Shown: one piece after another, positions 2,913 to 63,965 of the stretch
Numbering within the stretch: position 1 is the stretch's first letter
Layout of the letters: every line of letters begins with the position of its first letter
Assembly: GCA_900317585.1 (NCBI GenBank)
Contig: ONHG01000007.1
Span: forward strand, 50,417-114,416
Source of the DNA: an uncultured Lachnospiraceae bacterium
GTDB lineage: Bacteria; Bacillota; Clostridia; Lachnospirales; Lachnospiraceae
Direction: 5' to 3'
Length of the DNA stretch: 64,000 nt
Notes under the pieces: generated by a model
Database searches by the model: none
Told to the model about the DNA's origin: nothing
Seen by the model: only the letters and a program-made list of their open reading frames with translations
Program-made: the position numbers and the translations under genes

Positions 2913-4274
2913 TTACTCCTCTAATCCTTTTACTAATTCCTTGAAGATACGTCCTCTCTCCTCATAATTAGGGAACATTCCCCAGCTTGCACATGCAGGT
3001 GATAAAAGGACGGCATCGCCTGAAGCAGCATGCTCATAACAATAGCTGACAGCCTCCTCAAAGGTATCCTTCTTTACTGTATTCATGAATCCATGTCTGT
3101 GTGCACATTCCTCTATTTTGTCCGCTGTCTGACCGATGAGCACAAGCTCCTTGACCTTACCGTCAAAGGCCTCTATCCACTCGTCATATTCTGACTGTTT
3201 ATCATATCCTCCTCCGATAAGAAGTGTCGGTCTGTTCATGGCACGTATTCCCTGAATAGCCGCATCGGGATTGGTTCCCTTTGAATCATTGTAAAACTTA
3301 ACACCGCGCTTTTCTGTCACATATTCTATTCTGTGTTCAACCGCCTTAAATACCTTAAGCACCTCGACAATCTTATCCATAGGCACACCAAAGCTTAAGG
3401 ACATGGCACAGGCTGCCATAACATTCTCAAAATTGTGCTTTCCAAGCAGATTCAGGTCATTTACATTGATTATCTCATCGCGTGCACCATCGTGTGCATA
3501 CATGATGATGTCTCCATCCAGATAAAAGCCCTCTGAAAGCTCTGACTTACTGCTGAAAAACACAACCTTAGCCGGGCACTCTGCCGCAAAGCCTCTAAGT
3601 ACCTTATCCTCATAGTTTAAGATACAAAAATCATCCTTTGTCTGATTCTTTGTGATATCTTCTTTTGCCCTGATATAGTTTTCCATTGTGTGATGACGAT
3701 TAAGATGATCCGGTGTAATATTTAAGATTGCACTGATGTGCGGCTTGAAGGTATCAATTGTCTCAAGCTGGAAGCTGGATATCTCTGCTACTGTCACGGT
3801 CTCATCCGTGCTTCCTGTAACCATTGATGTATATGGTATTCCAATGTTTCCAACAACTCTTACATCCTTAAAGTAATTCTTCATTATCTCACCTGTAAGT
3901 GCCGTGGTCGTTGTCTTGCCGTTGGTTCCTGTAATAGCAATGATTCTGCCTGCGCCAAATGTGTATGCAAGCTCTATCTCACCCCAGATTTTAACGCCCT
4001 TATCTCTTAATGAATTGACCATAGGAATATCTGTTGGTACACCCGGACTGAGTACAGCCACATCAAACTCATCCATCTGTGCATCTGTCATATCTCCGAG
4101 TATTAGCGGTACTTCACGGATTGCCGGTACCTTCTCATAAAGTGCCTCTGTATCAAGCTCTTTATTTCCATCAAATAATACTGTATCTATATTATTGGCA
4201 CGTAAAAGCTCTGTAGCTGCGATTCCGCTTTTTCCTGTACCGACAACAAGTACTTTCTTTCCTTGTAAGCTCAT
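2913..4274 (-). CDS. murD: UDP-N-acetylmuramoylalanine--D-glutamate ligase MurD
   Basis: Cytoplasmic ATP-dependent ligase that adds D-glutamate to UDP-MurNAc-L-Ala. Visible Mur-ligase features are the N-terminal nucleotide fold (VLVVGTGKSGIAATELL), the P-loop ITGTNGKTTTTALTGE, the central ILNITPDHLNRH, and the C-terminal motif FYNDSKGTNPDAA. The start chosen is ATG at 4274 (MSLQGKKV) behind GGAGGAATAAAA; an in-frame ATG at 4295 adds seven residues and has no good site. The resulting length of 453 aa is normal. It follows the second PBP directly. In most Firmicutes mraY stands here between the PBP and murD, but there is no room for it. Confidence 0.96.
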   Translation of the reverse strand: MSLQGKKVLVVGTGKSGIAATELLRANNIDTVLFDGNKELDTEALYEKVPAIREVPLILGDMTDAQMDEFDVAVLSPGVPTDIPMVNSLRDKGVKIWGEIELAYTFGAGRIIAITGTNGKTTTTALTGEIMKNYFKDVRVVGNIGIPYTSMVTGSTDETVTVAEISSFQLETIDTFKPHISAILNITPDHLNRHHTMENYIRAKEDITKNQTKDDFCILNYEDKVLRGFAAECPAKVVFFSSKSELSEGFYLDGDIIMYAHDGARDEIINVNDLNLLGKHNFENVMAACAMSLSFGVPMDKIVEVLKVFKAVEHRIEYVTEKRGVKFYNDSKGTNPDAAIQGIRAMNRPTLLIGGGYDKQSEYDEWIEAFDGKVKELVLIGQTADKIEECAHRHGFMNTVKKDTFEEAVSYCYEHAASGDAVLLSPACASWGMFPNYEERGRIFKELVKGLEE

Positions 4275-4358
4275 TTTTATTCCTCCGTTTTCCATGTATT
4301 AAACCCTGATTTATACACTAAATTATAGTATACGTTATTTATCCGTATTTCGCAAGAG

Positions 4359-6038
4359 CTACTGTTCATCCACATATGGTATTATTTCCGTAAACACCTC
4401 CGCGGCAACCGGAGCGGCAATGGTACCTCCGTAGTATACTCCACCTTTGGGATTATTTATTTTAACAAGCACCATCAGTCTTGGGTCATCTGCAGGATAA
4501 AATCCCAGAAACGATGCTATATAGACATTATCACTGCGTGGAAGTGTCTGCGATGTAGCTGTCTTTCCACCTATTGCATACCCTTCTACCTGCGCGTTTT
4601 TGCCTGAGCCCTCAGATACCACGCCTTCAAGAAGCATTCTGAGTGTCTCAGAGGTTTTCTCTGTACAAATACCGGTTCTGGTATCAAAAGATATCTGTTT
4701 CTTTGTGGTGCCATCGGAATTCAATATCTCTTTGCCTATATGCGGTGTCACCCTGTTTCCTCCATTTATCAGGGAGGATACCGTGGTCATAAGCTCTATA
4801 GGTGTAATCTGAAATGACTGTCCAAATGAAATTGTAGCAAGCTCCACCTGTCCTATTTTGTCAGGCTGATGCATTATAGTACCTGCTTCTCCCGGCAGAT
4901 CTATTCCTGTTTTTTCCAACAGGCAAAAGCTTTTAAAATTCTCATAATACCTGTCACACCCTATGCGCAGTCCAAGATCTATGAATACCGGGTTACACGA
5001 ATTCTGTATTCCCTGTACAAAGGTTTCGCTGCCGTGACCACTCCTTTTATGACAGTGTATACGTCTATCCTCCACCGTAATATATCCGGGACAGTAAAAG
5101 CTGTCGTCCAGACTTACCACATTCTCTTCAAGTGCTATAGCGGCTGTTATAATTTTAAATGTTGACCCCGGCTCATAAGTATCGCTGACGCAGCCGTTTC
5201 TCCATGCCTCGTCATGATTTTCACAGGAAAACGGGTCATTGAGATTGTACTCGGGATAGTCAGACATAGCATAGATTTCACCATTCTCAGGATTCATGAC
5301 TATGATGCTCACACTGTCAGCAAGGTTTTCATTATATGCCGCAGCAGCCTTCTGCTCACAGATTCTTTGTATGTTTATATCCAGCGTTGTGACAAGTGTA
5401 TCTCCTTTTTTTGGTGCCTGTCGTCTCTCCTTATAGCCCTTCACCTCCACACCTCTACCATCACATACTGTATATATTTTTCCGGGTTTTCCGGAAAGGA
5501 CATCATCATAGGTTGCTTCAAGCCCGACAACACCCTGTCCATCAGCCCCGGAGAATCCAATAACTTTTGAAAACAGTTCATTTCCAGGATAGTATCTTAT
5601 GCTTGACTCATCTACCTTTACCCCGGCTAAACCGTAGGAGAGTATTCTGTCACCGGTTTCCCTTGAAACATTGTTTTTAATTTTTTCTATCGAGGTAACC
5701 TTTTCCACCTTTTTACGTATCTTCGATTCATCCATCGAAAGCTCTGTGCTCAGTGTCCTGATTACCGCTTCCTCATCAGTTATCTGATTATGTATCACTG
5801 AAATGTTGCAGGCTGTCTCATTTGCCGCTATAACACTTCCGTTTCTGTCTAATATATCTCCGCGTATGCCCGCTATTGTCCTCTCACGCTCCTGCAGTGC
5901 CCGGGCTTTTTTACTGTAATATTCTCCCTTTACAAGAATAAGATAACCCAAACGGACACATAATACCATAAGCATTATTGTTATCATCGCACACAGTACA
6001 CATATTTTCTTTCTATACCCGGTATTATTCAATATCAT
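4359..6038 (-). CDS. Class B penicillin-binding protein, transpeptidase with KTA motif
   Basis: Membrane-anchored peptidoglycan transpeptidase of the FtsI/SpoVD class. One N-terminal membrane segment (about 10-35) is followed by the PBP dimerisation domain (GIRGDILDRNGSVIA) and a transpeptidase domain with Ser292 in STFK and the second motif SCN at 347-349. The third motif, normally KTG, reads K492-T493-A494 in GGKTATSQT, an unusual substitution in the beta3 strand that faces the substrate. There is no PASTA domain after residue 540. Its start codon lies only eight bases after a strong hairpin that contains its GAGG, so expression may differ from that of the PBP upstream. It could be the sporulation type (SpoVD-like) or the division PBP; sequence alone does not decide. 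Confidence 0.9.
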   Translation of the reverse strand: MILNNTGYRKKICVLCAMITIMLMVLCVRLGYLILVKGEYYSKKARALQERERTIAGIRGDILDRNGSVIAANETACNISVIHNQITDEEAVIRTLSTELSMDESKIRKKVEKVTSIEKIKNNVSRETGDRILSYGLAGVKVDESSIRYYPGNELFSKVIGFSGADGQGVVGLEATYDDVLSGKPGKIYTVCDGRGVEVKGYKERRQAPKKGDTLVTTLDINIQRICEQKAAAAYNENLADSVSIIVMNPENGEIYAMSDYPEYNLNDPFSCENHDEAWRNGCVSDTYEPGSTFKIITAAIALEENVVSLDDSFYCPGYITVEDRRIHCHKRSGHGSETFVQGIQNSCNPVFIDLGLRIGCDRYYENFKSFCLLEKTGIDLPGEAGTIMHQPDKIGQVELATISFGQSFQITPIELMTTVSSLINGGNRVTPHIGKEILNSDGTTKKQISFDTRTGICTEKTSETLRMLLEGVVSEGSGKNAQVEGYAIGGKTATSQTLPRSDNVYIASFLGFYPADDPRLMVLVKINNPKGGVYYGGTIAAPVAAEVFTEIIPYVDEQ

Positions 6039-24094: not shown

Positions 24095-24474
24095 TACATC
24101 GTAGACACGGCTGGCTTACACCAGCCTCCGTATATTCGTGGTCCGCACAGTAGGTGCTACTTGCTCATATCCGGACATTCGTCAAATAAAAAATCAGAGG
24201 CAAGCGAGCTTGTAGCGTTTTTTTACTTACATCGTAGACACGGCTGGCTTACACCAGCCTCCGTATATTCGCAATCCGCACTTAGGTGCTTCTTGCTCAT
24301 ATCCGGACATTCGTCAAATAAAAAATCAGAGGCAAGCGAGCTTATGGTGTTATTTTACTTACATCGTAGACACGGCTGGATTCTCCAGCCTCCGTATATT
24401 CGCAATCCGCACTTAGGTGCTTCTTGCTCATATCCGGACATTCGTCAAATAAAAAATCAGAGGCAAGCGAGCTT
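24095..24474. repeat. Three tandem 132-133 bp repeats
   Basis: Units begin TACATCGTAGACACGGCTGG at 24095, 24228 and 24360 (periods 133 and 132 bp). Each has a hairpin GGCTGG/CCAGCC, a core ATATTCG..CCGCAC..GGTGCT..TTGCTCATATCCGGAC and a tail AAAAAATCAGAGGCAAGCGA. Units 2 and 3 are nearly identical, and unit 1 differs most in the core. The third unit continues into the second arm of the groEL terminator, which units 1 and 2 lack. The core shares blocks in the same order with the interior of the element at 54232-54427. The indels do not keep frame, so I read the array as noncoding. Confidence 0.9.
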
Positions 24475-24492
24475 GCCTCTGATTTTTTATTT
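24447..24492 (-). terminator. Terminator of groEL
   Basis: A perfect 22-bp stem (24447-24468 with 24471-24492) with A and T runs at its ends lies 17 bp after the groEL stop. Its left arm on the plus strand is the tail of the third tandem repeat. Confidence 0.88.
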
Positions 24493-24508
24493 TCCTCATT
24501 GTCTACGA

Positions 24509-60838: not shown

Positions 60839-60949
60839 TTAAAATCCTCCTTACATTTATAATCTATTTTGAAATACAAAATTAATATCATTTAAAATAA
60901 ATACTTTATACCCATTATAATACATCTCTTTTCATTTTTATACATAAAA

Positions 60950-60982
60950 AAACCTTGAAACAACTATCTTGCTTCAAGGTTT
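60950..60982 (-). terminator. Ancestral tRNA-Trp terminator / integrase terminator
   Basis: Stem AAACCTTGAA/TTCAAGGTTT, loop of 13 nt, followed on the minus strand by a T-run. It directly abuts the right att copy (60983). Before integration it would have followed the tRNA-Trp; now it follows the integrase end. Confidence 0.7.
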
Positions 60983-61009
60983 AATAACAGGGGATGAGAG
61001 AATCGAACT
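60983..61009. repeat. att copy distal to tRNA-Trp (27-bp direct repeat)
   Basis: These 27 bases are identical to 63685-63711, which include the 3' end of the tRNA-Trp gene (T-arm and acceptor). The match starts AATAACAGGGGATGAGAGAA. It lies 97 bp beyond the integrase stop, as expected for one end of a tRNA-integrated element. Confidence 0.88.
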
Positions 61010-61105
61010 GCAAAGTGAAATTTTCAATAACCTCTGCAAGCCTTGATTTTACTGCATTCCATCACTATTGTACTTACACAAATCCTGTTCCTCTGTGTTC
61101 CTTTT

Positions 61106-62341
61106 CTAAAAACTAATTGCACCACTAATTTGATTAAGCTTTGTCTTATAACTTTTATTACTATAATAATATAATTTTCTGGTTGTTGACACATCTGTAT
61201 GCCCCATTTGTTCTGCAACAAAGCTATCGTTCACATCGCTATCAAGAAGCGTTGTTCCATAAGTCTTTCTAATCTTATGTGTAGTTCTGTGAGGAATATT
61301 TAATTTTTCACATATTCTATTCAATCTCTTATTATAAGTGTTCTCTCTGATACGTTTTCCTTTATCCATAAATAGAAAATCTCCATTTGGATTAAGTTCC
61401 AAAATTTTAGAAATCGTCCATTGCGCTGATGGTGGAAGAATTATTTCTCTATATCCTGCATCTGTCTTTGGCAATTCAGAAACAACCATTTTCCATACGT
61501 CATCAATTTTAATTTTAACCTCTGTCCTACGTATCAGAATACTGTGCTTTTTTATATCCTCTTTTTTTAGAGTTGAAATTTCACCGATACGTGCTCCAGT
61601 CTCAAACTGCAAGAGTAACGCTAAATTCCATATATCTGGATTTTCTTTCAAATACCCAATAATAACAGGAATTTCATCCTCCATGAATACTTCTGTTTTT
61701 TTATCTTTAAAATTCTTTTTAAAAATATTCTTAGGCAAATATAAATCCTTGATGAATGTTGAAATACTTATTGTAGTACATCCCATCTTTTTTCCATACT
61801 TAAATATTCCATTAAGTAAAGTTACAAGACCAGAATACGCTTTTCTTGTTAATTCCATATCTCGAATTGTAGTTTTAATAAAACGTTCCAAATCTTCCTC
61901 TGTGATATTTTTCATTTTCTTAATACATATGAAACTATCTTTAGTGAAAAATCTTTTGAACTCTGCACAATACTTATCATAAGACTGCTTTTTTATTTCT
62001 CCATAATCGAGTTTTTCATTCATCCATTTCCAGAAAACATCTTTAATATAAATAGATTTTTTAAGTTCCTTATAATAATTAACTAAATAGTCCTCCAGCT
62101 CCTCTCTGGTTTTACGATGTCTAACAGCACTTGTCCCATCATCAAGAGGAACTCGTGTAGACCATCTACCGTCACTACCTTGTACAATTGCATATTTATG
62201 TTGCGCCAATATCTCTTTTTTTGTCATATCGTCTACAACATTCTTAATACTTTCTAAATTGATTATACCACTATCGACCGCATATTGTAATATTTCTTTT
62301 TTGTCAGATACATTCGTCTGATTGTTCATAATAGATACCAT
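61106..62341 (-). CDS. Tyrosine recombinase (integrase)
   Basis: A 411-aa site-specific recombinase. An AP2-like or SAM-like N-terminal arm domain (QGSDGRWSTRVPLDDGTSAVRHRKTREEL, about 50-85) precedes a core-binding domain (about 95-190) and the catalytic domain with R251 (ETGARIGE), K292, H355-x-x-R358, H381 and Y391. All six expected catalytic residues are present, so it is probably active. The start is an ATG at 62341 or 62329; neither has a good ribosome binding site, and the first is within an inverted repeat. It probably mediates insertion into tRNA-Trp. Confidence 0.95.
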   Translation of the reverse strand: MVSIMNNQTNVSDKKEILQYAVDSGIINLESIKNVVDDMTKKEILAQHKYAIVQGSDGRWSTRVPLDDGTSAVRHRKTREELEDYLVNYYKELKKSIYIKDVFWKWMNEKLDYGEIKKQSYDKYCAEFKRFFTKDSFICIKKMKNITEEDLERFIKTTIRDMELTRKAYSGLVTLLNGIFKYGKKMGCTTISISTFIKDLYLPKNIFKKNFKDKKTEVFMEDEIPVIIGYLKENPDIWNLALLLQFETGARIGEISTLKKEDIKKHSILIRRTEVKIKIDDVWKMVVSELPKTDAGYREIILPPSAQWTISKILELNPNGDFLFMDKGKRIRENTYNKRLNRICEKLNIPHRTTHKIRKTYGTTLLDSDVNDSFVAEQMGHTDVSTTRKLYYYSNKSYKTKLNQISGAISF

Positions 62342-62354
62342 AAGGATATCTATT
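62330..62354 (-). promoter_or_regulatory. Inverted repeat across the integrase start
   Basis: AATAGATA, nine-base spacer, TATCTATT. The spacer contains the integrase ATG at 62341. It could be an operator for autoregulation or an RNA hairpin that hides the start. Confidence 0.4.
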
Positions 62355-62931
62355 TGAGTAGGATAGATTGTAATGATTTAGACTCGTCATATCGTTATTT
62401 CCTTTCATTAAAATTTTGTGATTTATATAAAAAGCTGTTTTACGCAGTAAATAAAACAGTTTGAAAGAGGGTAGATACAGCCGTATCAGTCAGTCGCACA
62501 TAAGAGGATAAAATACATCCTCTAAGTGCTTTGTGACAGCCTAGACGCTAGGCGTTTTGCGAACAGAGGAAAGGCTGATATCGGCTTTTACAAGTGCATT
62601 ATAATATATATAGGTTTTAAAATCTTTCAGAAAAAGGAGAAAAAAATGGGGACAAAAAAAGTGCTCGTGTGTTTGAACACGAACACATAGGGGATGTGTT
62701 GAGTATGAAGTTGGAAAGGCTTGTAAATAGTGGGGTTGGAGAGTGTAACACAGAACACAAAGGTTCGGGGTAATACTATGCCCGAACCTCCCCCCTCTGG
62801 GGGAATGCGCCGGTGTGCTCGGACGCTACGCCATCCTGTGCTCGACAGCTCCACCTCCGTTACGCCTGTCTGCGTCAAGAATGCCTGCGTCTGTCCGCAC
62901 TGTGGGCGATAGATAAATTCATATATTAATT
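62342..62931. other. Hairpin-rich noncoding tract in the element
   Basis: About 590 bp without a convincing gene. Hairpins are CTGTTTTA/TAAAACAG, GATAC/GTATC, GAGGAT/ATCCTC, GCCTAG/CTAGGC, GGTTCGGG/CCCGAACC and CCCCC/GGGGG, spread from about 62440 to 62805. The right half (62770-62910) is much richer in GC than its surroundings. It could hold an origin of transfer or replication, a structured RNA, the integrase control region or a deletion scar. Confidence 0.5.
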
Positions 62932-63510
62932 TTAATCGCCTGAGTATGTTCCAAGAAGCTCCTGCATTTGACTATATGTAAGATCATACACACTATTTAA
63001 GTTATTATCAAGCTCATATTGAACCAAAACATCATCTGATTTACTATCACCATATAAAGAGCCATCTGGCATTGTCATGCCTGAGTAGTAAACCCTACCT
63101 GTATTTGTATCATACATTACTGTAAATCCCTTATCAGTTGTACGCTCTTGTAAGATTGTTCCATACGGATCATATCCTGTAGGTCCATAGTAAGGGAAGT
63201 CATTTTGAACTTTACCCTTTGTTGTTGTACCATAATCAGATTCATTCCAATTTTCTTTGAAGTTATCCCATGCTTTTTGATGTTGTGGATTATTATCAGG
63301 GTAATCATCGTTTGCTGGCTGTTCTGTTGATTTCTCTGTATTTATGTTTTCTGTTGAAATTTCGGCTACAGTTTCTGTGGTGGTTTCCGTTACGCTTTCT
63401 GTTGCTGTAGCTTTTTCAGTTGATGGTGTAGTAGAGTCTTTATTGCCACAAGCTACGATAGATAAACCCATTATTAAACATAAAAATGTAATTATTATTT
63501 TTCTTTTCAT
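62932..63510 (-). CDS. Lipoprotein of unknown function (element cargo)
   Basis: A 192-aa secreted lipoprotein. The signal peptide MKRKIIITFLCLIMGLSIVAC ends in a lipobox with Cys21. A threonine/glutamate-rich linker follows (about 25-70), then a compact domain of about 120 residues with YGPTGYDPYGTILQERTTDKG and VYYSGMTMPDGSLYG. I do not recognise the domain. AAGGGAGA precedes the ATG and TATAAT stands about 35 bp further upstream. It is the only cargo gene of the element and should be processed by Lgt. Confidence 0.75.
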   Translation of the reverse strand: MKRKIIITFLCLIMGLSIVACGNKDSTTPSTEKATATESVTETTTETVAEISTENINTEKSTEQPANDDYPDNNPQHQKAWDNFKENWNESDYGTTTKGKVQNDFPYYGPTGYDPYGTILQERTTDKGFTVMYDTNTGRVYYSGMTMPDGSLYGDSKSDDVLVQYELDNNLNSVYDLTYSQMQELLGTYSGD

Positions 63511-63641
63511 TTGATTGTCTCCCTTTCGCTATTTTCTAATTATACCATAATTCCAGAGAAACAAGAAGAAAATATTAAGAATGTATCTCCTTTCATGCCT
63601 TGTTCCTTTAGTGTTCCTTTTCTTTTTTATAACCAAAACAA

Positions 63642-63683
63642 AAAAGACCAGAACACTTGAATTTGCAAGTATTCTAGCCTTTT
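63642..63683 (-). terminator. Terminator of tRNA-Trp, brought by the element
   Basis: A 14-bp stem (63646-63659 with 63666-63679) with several G-U pairs, loop of 6 nt and a T-run, 7 bp after the tRNA. It is inside the element, so it replaced the terminator now at 60950. Confidence 0.75.
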
Positions 63684-63684
63684 A

Positions 63685-63711
63685 AATAACAGGGGATGAG
63701 AGAATCGAACT
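63685..63711. repeat. att copy in the tRNA-Trp 3' end (27-bp direct repeat)
   Basis: Identical to 60983-61009; covers the T-arm, acceptor 3' strand and 5 bp past the tRNA. The tRNA is intact because the element carries the matching 3' end. Confidence 0.88.
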
Positions 63712-63760
63712 CCCGCTAAAAGTTTTGGAGACTTCTGTCATACCATTTGACCAATCCCCT
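63690..63760 (-). tRNA. tRNA-Trp (CCA)
   Basis: Cloverleaf on the minus strand: acceptor AGGGGAT/ATCCCCT, D stem GTCA/TGAC, anticodon loop CTCCAAA with CCA at 63726-63728, T stem GGGAG/CTCTC with loop TTCGATT. The discriminator is G and CCA is not encoded. It lies about 205 bp after the 23S gene. Confidence 0.95.
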
Positions 63761-63965
63761 ATATTTAGATACTATATCAAATATAGAAAACGGACGCAAT
63801 AGGAATTACGTCTTATTTTTAATGTACCTTCAAAACTTCATACAAATTTGATTTGTTTTTCTGTAATCCACACCGAAAAAATCATCTCGATTCAAATCCA
63901 GATTTATGCAGACACATCTGCAAAATCCGTATTTCATTGTACTTGTTTTTCTCAGTTATTAACCA
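63761..63965 (-). other. Spacer between 23S rRNA and tRNA-Trp, no 5S seen
   Basis: AT-rich spacer with no 5S-like sequence (no GGTGGC-type 5' end or conserved GAAC-CGAA core). A small hairpin (GCAGA/TCTGC) lies at about 63909-63922 and may be a processing signal. Confidence 0.6.

Follow-up and report, generated by a model that had tools for sequence, protein, structure and literature searches.

How could an integrative element of 2.7 kb that encodes neither a replication nor a transfer protein be copied and moved? The question is raised by the block at positions 60983 to 63711 of a 64,000-nucleotide stretch of DNA (the window, analysed here at its full length) from an uncultured Lachnospiraceae bacterium (GCA_900317585.1, contig ONHG01000007.1). 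An earlier reading of the letters alone (the sequence-only reading) had described an integrase and a lipoprotein gene between perfect 27-bp direct repeats, one of them the 3' end of tRNA-Trp, and had left the choice between a deletion derivative and a satellite that needs a helper. We confirmed that the integrative element is real, and we found that its 0.5 kb of noncoding DNA (62400-62931), absent from that description, holds two homologous, structured modules: a double-strand origin hairpin of the CRESS type (circular Rep-encoding single-stranded DNA) and a probable single-strand origin (sso). We consider it fairly probable that the element is a Rep-less relative of the integrative elements with a Viral_Rep replication initiator, known as integrated pCRESS plasmids or as integrative and mobilizable elements (IMEs), and that it is mobile only if a helper supplies the Rep.

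The element and its empty site

Both attachment (att) repeats are present as described and identical at all 27 positions (Table 1), and in a random 64-kb sequence of the same composition only about 4e-8 pairs of such 27-bp repeats would be expected by chance within 5 kb of each other. The repeat consists of the last 23 nt of the tRNA-Trp gene and the 4 nt past its end, in agreement with the proposal that the tRNA is the target, and the gene itself was called by ARAGORN and by Rfam. The proposed new terminator of the restored tRNA was likewise found, as a terminator-like hairpin with a U run inside the element, and a second such hairpin lies past the far repeat, where the original terminator has been displaced. 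Between the att sites there are two protein genes (integrase and lipoprotein) and the noncoding core.

The test set for this picture was the existence of a strain with a single att copy, and genome G306 provides it. Its flanks are those of the window joined without the element, in an unbroken match across the junction (96.4% over 561 bp) with one att copy, and the gene next to the site (by eye an esterase) has an ortholog there that is 97% identical. G306 has the precise empty site, in a relative belonging to another species than the host. The rRNA operon reported beside the element is merely touched in the window, because the window stops where its contig ends (position 114416); the corresponding flank of G306 continues into 23S rRNA.

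Two probable replication signals in the noncoding core

The folding of the noncoding core beats that of 100 of 100 shuffles on each strand (z -4.4 and -3.6). Its first module is the origin hairpin, whose loop displays TAGTATTAC, the nick site of nanovirus Rep in such a stem-loop according to PMC10434203, and the loop of the element may hold its nick site in the same way. None of 300 dinucleotide-preserving shuffles of the window produced a stem of 9 with NANTATTAC, while one reached a stem of at least 8 and eight a stem of at least 7. A search for NANYATTRC on a stem of at least 7 covered the window together with 173 loci, 174 sequences of 780 kb in all with overlaps. It matched in the host genome and in G343, G227, G304, G317 and G337 only, and these last five all carry a Rep of the CRESS kind. 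The hairpin class is present in five of the seven Rep-bearing genomes, adjoining Rep in G304, G317 and G337 and about 3 kb away from it in G343 and G227; the letters of the stem vary between elements and the pairing is kept. Two genomes, G337 and G304, have the hairpin in the gap that separates Rep from a gene of FtsK/SpoIIIE type (PF01580, with the G304 match just under the cut-off). This is the expected place given the IME layout described in PMC5357655, in which the tcpA gene precedes those for relaxase, excisionase and integrase. We infer that the origin of transfer (oriT) of such IMEs would occupy the gap between tcpA and relaxase. The 7.3-kb contig of G337 yielded no att repeats.

Further searches for the hairpin were made by pattern. 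Among 126 further loci fetched in this way, three matches lay outside the host genome: L205 and two 7-bp stems with other loops. The L205 hairpin (position 4699, minus strand, of a 4.8-kb IMG/VR contig) has an 11-bp stem and a loop that is exactly TAGTATTAC. A G-run plus TAGTATTACC, intended to reveal other Rep-less copies, was found in 4 of 299 genomes of the family, with a paired stem in the host genome only; the pattern alone is without signal, since its reversed control matched 19 of the 299. In viral contigs it gave one strong paired stem, that of L205, among at least 120 stretches. The noncoding DNA of the window had no match in plasmid records at E 0.01, nor had the sso and origin of G343 at E 0.1.

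The second module is probably an sso. It lies about 0.2 kb from the origin hairpin, the strand that carries it is the one which replication from the origin would displace, and its first hairpin shows TAGCGT, which we take to be a feature of ssoA-type origins. Positions 62471-62556 are 88% identical over 86 bp to a stretch beside the Rep-like gene of the G227 element, and the counterpart in G343 lies upstream of the integrase of that element. In the helices of the three sequences, 97% of the cells are paired and three pairs have changed on both sides, against a mean of 1.0 in shuffles (16 of 500 reached three). In ICEBs1 an sso aids both replication and establishment (PMC4595007). We ran a covariance model of the module against 299 genomes from the family and 62 from the genus, which with two in both sets make 359 distinct ones. 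At E 0.1 some match was obtained in 46 of the 299 and 9 of the 62 genomes; apart from those in the host, G343 and G227, the matches reached 37 bits at most, were for the most part short (covering model positions 40-73) and were excluded from the count. The sso core matched viral contigs once, within a phage coding region, which we read as chance, and the longer sso pattern had no match in them.

Two other identities of this core were considered. The element might be a filamentous-phage satellite whose packaging depends on a hairpin region shared with the phage, for 36 bp are 89% identical to intergenic DNA of inovirus PQ006180 (E 4e-3). This match is weak and occurs in one of 50,697 phage records, the G227 sso matches no phage record at E 0.1, and the remaining region matches CRESS elements; such a satellite is very unlikely. 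Neither protein of the element is of a packaging or capsid-hijacking kind. The core could also be a P-type oriT (CATCCTG) served by a classical relaxase, for ACGCCATCCTGTGC resembles what we assume to be the P-type nick site. We rejected this candidate as scarcely credible: its one-mismatch pattern occurs in 6 of 299 genomes (the host included) and the reversed control likewise in 6, the matches elsewhere share no surrounding sequence, the one with ORFs (open reading frames) checked falls in a gene, and the G343 homologue has CGTCCTG instead.

Relatives and the missing Rep block

The two relatives by origin are larger elements inserted in other tRNA genes. That of G343, from the same genus, occupies tRNA-Leu, and its att copies (27 nt, 93%) are separated by 9.2 kb. 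That of G227, from another genus of the same family, occupies tRNA-Lys, and its att copies (22 nt, 100%) are separated by 8.6 kb. The G343 Rep matches PF02407 (Viral_Rep) at 2.9e-9 and PF00910 at 0.0005, the latter just under the cut-off; the G227 Rep matches PF02407 below the cut-off. The most distant Rep is that of G337, which is 27% identical to the G343 protein and matches PF00910 only, below the cut-off.

BLAST aligned 62907-62640 with the G343 locus (L064) at 75% over 283 columns (E 3e-44), and local alignment extended the homology to 62598 (L064 8084-7755), with a score of 295 against at most 57 in 100 letter shuffles. The homology ends there and restarts at 62571, from which 62571-62481 matches L064 2710-2622 at 88%, so that the counterparts of the two edges are L064 7755 and 2710. 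The 5.0 kb between the modules of L064 hold the Rep gene (3322-4473) and seven other ORFs of at least 60 codons, on the same strand. In G343 and G227 alike a distance of 4-5 kb, in which a CRESS-type Rep gene lies, separates the modules, and the order and strand of origin, sso and integrase are identical in the window and in both relatives. From this shared order, and from the 26 bp that face the 5.0 kb, we conclude that the element has the same architecture without the Rep block. Between the att sites there is no ORF for a Rep or relaxase of the Viral_Rep type, nor for a TcpA/FtsK coupling protein, which is usual in Rel_PF02407 IMEs and not universal. The earlier statement that replication and transfer genes are lacking therefore holds for ORFs; what it missed are the DNA signals for replication, namely the CRESS-type origin and the probable sso.

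The same gap would appear if the contig had joined two parts of a larger element, and an assembly in 52 contigs makes such an artefact conceivable. No misjoining repeat is seen at the junction, and the att repeats and flanks fit a complete insertion by comparison with G306, which makes this explanation most improbable.

Table 1. Features of the element and its target in the window (blank strand, none assigned).
Feature	Position	Strand	Evidence
Original tRNA-Trp terminator, displaced past far repeat	~60948-60982	-	Hairpin and U run, z -7.2; comes directly after the tRNA in the G306 empty site
att repeat, host-distal copy	60983-61009		27/27 identity with 63685-63711; in G306 a single copy joins both flanks
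Tyrosine integrase, 411 aa	61106-62341	-	PF00589 1.9e-21
Candidate sso, hairpins, TAGCGT in loop region of the first	62481-62571	-	88% over 91 bp to the G343 element
Junction, 26 bp	62572-62597		G343 element has 5.0 kb, including the Rep gene, there
Origin region	62598-62907	-	Homologous to L064 7755-8084
CRESS-type double-strand origin stem-loop (possible oriT), AGGTTCGGG-CATAGTATTAC-CCCGAACCT	62789-62761	-	9-bp stem, displays TAGTATTAC
G+C hairpin CCCCC-loop-GGGGG adjoining origin	62791-62803		Beside the origin in L064 and L044 too
Cargo, predicted lipoprotein, 192 aa	62932-63510	-	ORF; signal peptide and Cys (lipobox) by eye; no convincing relative
Replacement tRNA-Trp terminator inside the element	~63645-63683	-	Hairpin and U run, z -7.9
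att repeat, tRNA copy	63685-63711		Identical to 60983-61009
tRNA-Trp, anticodon CCA, intact, integration target	63689-63761	-	ARAGORN; Rfam 63.3 bits

Two possible readings: borrowed replication or a stranded remnant

A Rep-less relative of CRESS elements could be maintained as follows. Its own tyrosine integrase inserts it at the 3' end of tRNA-Trp and presumably excises it as a 2.7-kb circle. A CRESS (Viral_Rep) initiator would then nick the stem-loop within TAGTATT/AC, the probable sso on the displaced strand would act as the second retained rolling-circle signal, and the Rep of a larger element in the same cell would thus replicate the circle in trans. The helper Rep may also start conjugative transfer through the pore of a third element, since Reps of this kind are the proposed relaxases of IMEs. 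Because the retained signals are a CRESS-type origin and a probable sso, the indicated helpers are elements with a Viral_Rep (PF02407) initiator. Within the genus, CRESS Reps were found in 6 of 62 genomes by protein search and in 5 of 62 with PF02407 (one of the five, in G303, being a broken frame), and possible helpers therefore exist there.

Several observations weigh against this reading. No CRESS Rep was found in the host genome, which is 86.6% complete (P0003 protein search at E 1e-10; PF02407 at E 0.01), and no Rep could be named as cognate to exactly the origin of the window. Two of the seven genomes with a Rep, G307 and G357, gave no origin hairpin, and neither did plasmid p4M, which has a Rep of 27% identity. 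Strong sso matches (E about 1e-25) are limited to 3 of the 359 genomes, those of the host, G343 and G227, and three sequences are few for judging covariation. Finally, the Rep-less form is represented by one copy, with no second one to indicate spread.

Some of these points would equally suit a stranded deletion derivative, in which a larger tRNA-Trp element with a CRESS Rep lost its Rep block and became immobile or capable of excision only, its origins being relics. The clean loss between the two origins, with 26 bp remaining, speaks for it, as do the lack of a visible helper Rep in the host genome and the single Rep-less copy that the sso search returned among the 359 genomes. It sits less well with the intact frame of the integrase, the identical att repeats and the perfectly paired origin stem, and the identities of the integrase (below) suggest an exchange of modules beyond a single deletion. 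We regard this explanation as a substantial possibility, though not the expected one. The two alternatives of the sequence-only reading are in this way retained, with one Rep-bearing block as the part that is absent by comparison with kin.

Within the favoured reading of a Rep-less CRESS relative, a more specific proposal can be made only tentatively, and we think it possible though less likely than not: the element could be a satellite dedicated to integrative CRESS plasmids and dependent on their Rep. It would then correspond, in bacteria, to the Rep-less satellites of plant single-stranded DNA (ssDNA) viruses, with its own integrase, borrowed replication and perhaps borrowed initiation of transfer.

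Integrase and cargo

The tyrosine integrase has all the catalytic residues attributed to it, R251, K292, H355, R358 and Y391 being invariant in the protein and five relatives (an alignment of six); the catalytic roles of these positions are those that we presume. It is 53% identical to an integrase from an uncultured Lachnospiraceae assembly (L002), which has a MobA/MobL relaxase gene 2.3 kb upstream, and 50% identical to that of G330; identity falls to 34% for the CRESS element of G337, 28% for G343 and 23% for G227. The integrases of the two origin relatives (28 and 23%) are thus further from it than those of L002 and G330 (53 and 50%), and modules appear to have been exchanged among elements. 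Two distant integrase matches in viral contigs (28%) were left unused. An apparent tandem of IMEs occupies L002 4035-15066: the same att core is present there as a 20-bp copy towards which two integrase genes point from either side, with a MobA/MobL-like relaxase outward of each (one by Pfam, one by eye).

The lipoprotein cargo also exists as announced, as an ORF with a lipobox by eye. Matches to it occur in 26 of 62 genus genomes (E 0.001), nearly all through the first 60-90 residues and mainly of signal-peptide type or short, and it had none among viral contigs. The elements of G343, G227 and G304 too have predicted lipoprotein or secreted genes (by eye) close to the end away from the integrase; compared with the cargo of G343 and of G227, the two examined, the protein has no convincing similarity. 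A role in surface exclusion would be a guess.

Other tRNA-Trp loci and small elements

The 22-bp end of tRNA-Trp, searched with up to two mismatches (all 47 listed places were exact), is present in 41 of 62 genus genomes, with one copy in 35 and two in six, and among these six the pair brackets the 2.7-kb element in the host genome alone. Of the 47 places, 30 (that of the host among them) were examined together with L105-L110; in these 36 loci, several of them cut by contig ends, the left flank was common to the host locus and G306 only. Whole tRNAs lie on two contigs in G327 and at the one place inspected of the two in G307. In G330 the tRNA and an att copy are on different contigs, and the att copy stands beside the 50%-identical integrase of a larger prophage-like element (by eye); this element (L046 9984-17155), with the same tRNA-Trp att, has nrdD-, nrdG-, dUTPase- and DNA-ligase-like ORFs (by eye). 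The close pairs of G310 and G332 were rejected as second tRNA-Trp elements, both consisting of two complete tRNA-Trp genes a few kb apart (L105 1915-4829 and L106 1566-7088).

Some other structures came to light in these comparisons. In G307 (L113 3669-9302) a CRESS Rep gene has an integrase and some ORFs of transposase type (by eye IS66-like) as neighbours, and no TAGTATTAC hairpin was found. In a 4.1-kb contig from a faecal phage collection (L325, MT839696.1, 2027-4088) an ORF that by eye resembles a replication protein immediately precedes an integrase, and this is perhaps another kind of small integrative rolling-circle element. Elsewhere in the window, a Clostridiales-1 RNA (RF01699) was found at 24365-24507 with 93.7 bits.

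The Rfam family RF03070

The consensus hairpin of RF03070, 'ssNA-helicase RNA', holds UAGUAUUAC and is the same TAGTATTAC hairpin as in the element origins. The G304 origin scores 42.6, above the gathering score of 41.5, those of G337 (35.1) and G317 (31.9) score below it, G343 and G227 also fall short, and G307 and G357 have no match. The window gives 22.1 bits (E 0.67), insignificant alone, and its element was absent from a larger search (E up to 1, more sequence). The family coincides with a CRESS-type origin hairpin near Rep genes at L111 9097-9139, L073 2496-2540 and L071 1700-1740, and with the hairpin at 62744-62788 of the window; of these four places L111 alone exceeds the gathering score. 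RF03070, filed as a small RNA, is probably a DNA origin of CRESS-type elements, a view that the authors of the family may already have considered.

Comparison with known systems and significance

Two classes near to the element have been described before, the iOriT elements, which integrate and hitch-hike without a relaxase, and the PF02407 IMEs (PMC11389934, PMC5704250, PMC5357655). Among open-licence papers we found no Rep-less member with a CRESS origin and an sso. With the integrated pCRESS plasmids described by Kazlauskas et al. (2019, PMC6668415) the element shares site-specific integration, att repeats and the origin class seen in the Rep-bearing G343, G227, G304, G317 and G337, and it differs in having no Rep; the main text of that paper contains neither 'nonanucleotide' nor 'stem-loop'. 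The Rel_PF02407 IMEs, as presented by Coluzzi et al. (2017, PMC5357655) and Guedon et al. (2017, PMC5704250), have in common with it a tyrosine integrase, a rolling-circle-type DNA signal and the tRNA 3' end as target, known for some IMEs; it lacks their relaxase/Rep and TcpA. Like the iOriT elements (PLoS Biol 2024, PMC11389934), it has an integrase without a relaxase and would need a helper to move, and it differs from them by a CRESS-type replication origin and a probable sso. Its oriT role is putative, origin homology being what is observed. A cis-mobilizable element (CIME) loses its integration and transfer genes and keeps att, whereas here the integrase is present. The Rep-less satellites of plant ssDNA viruses are circles without Rep that carry a Rep-type stem-loop origin; the element, in its presumed circular form, resembles them in both respects and differs in being bacterial and integrative, with its own integrase.

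Bacterial relatives of the circovirus-type Rep have, so far as the literature cited here describes them, been known mainly through their proteins. Their origins now become visible as well: a nick site can be predicted, a probable sso accompanies the origin, and nature supplies a substrate devoid of Rep. It becomes testable whether such Reps serve satellites in trans, and whether they are relaxases. If RF03070 is a DNA origin, the family could serve to find origins of this type, Rep-less ones included.

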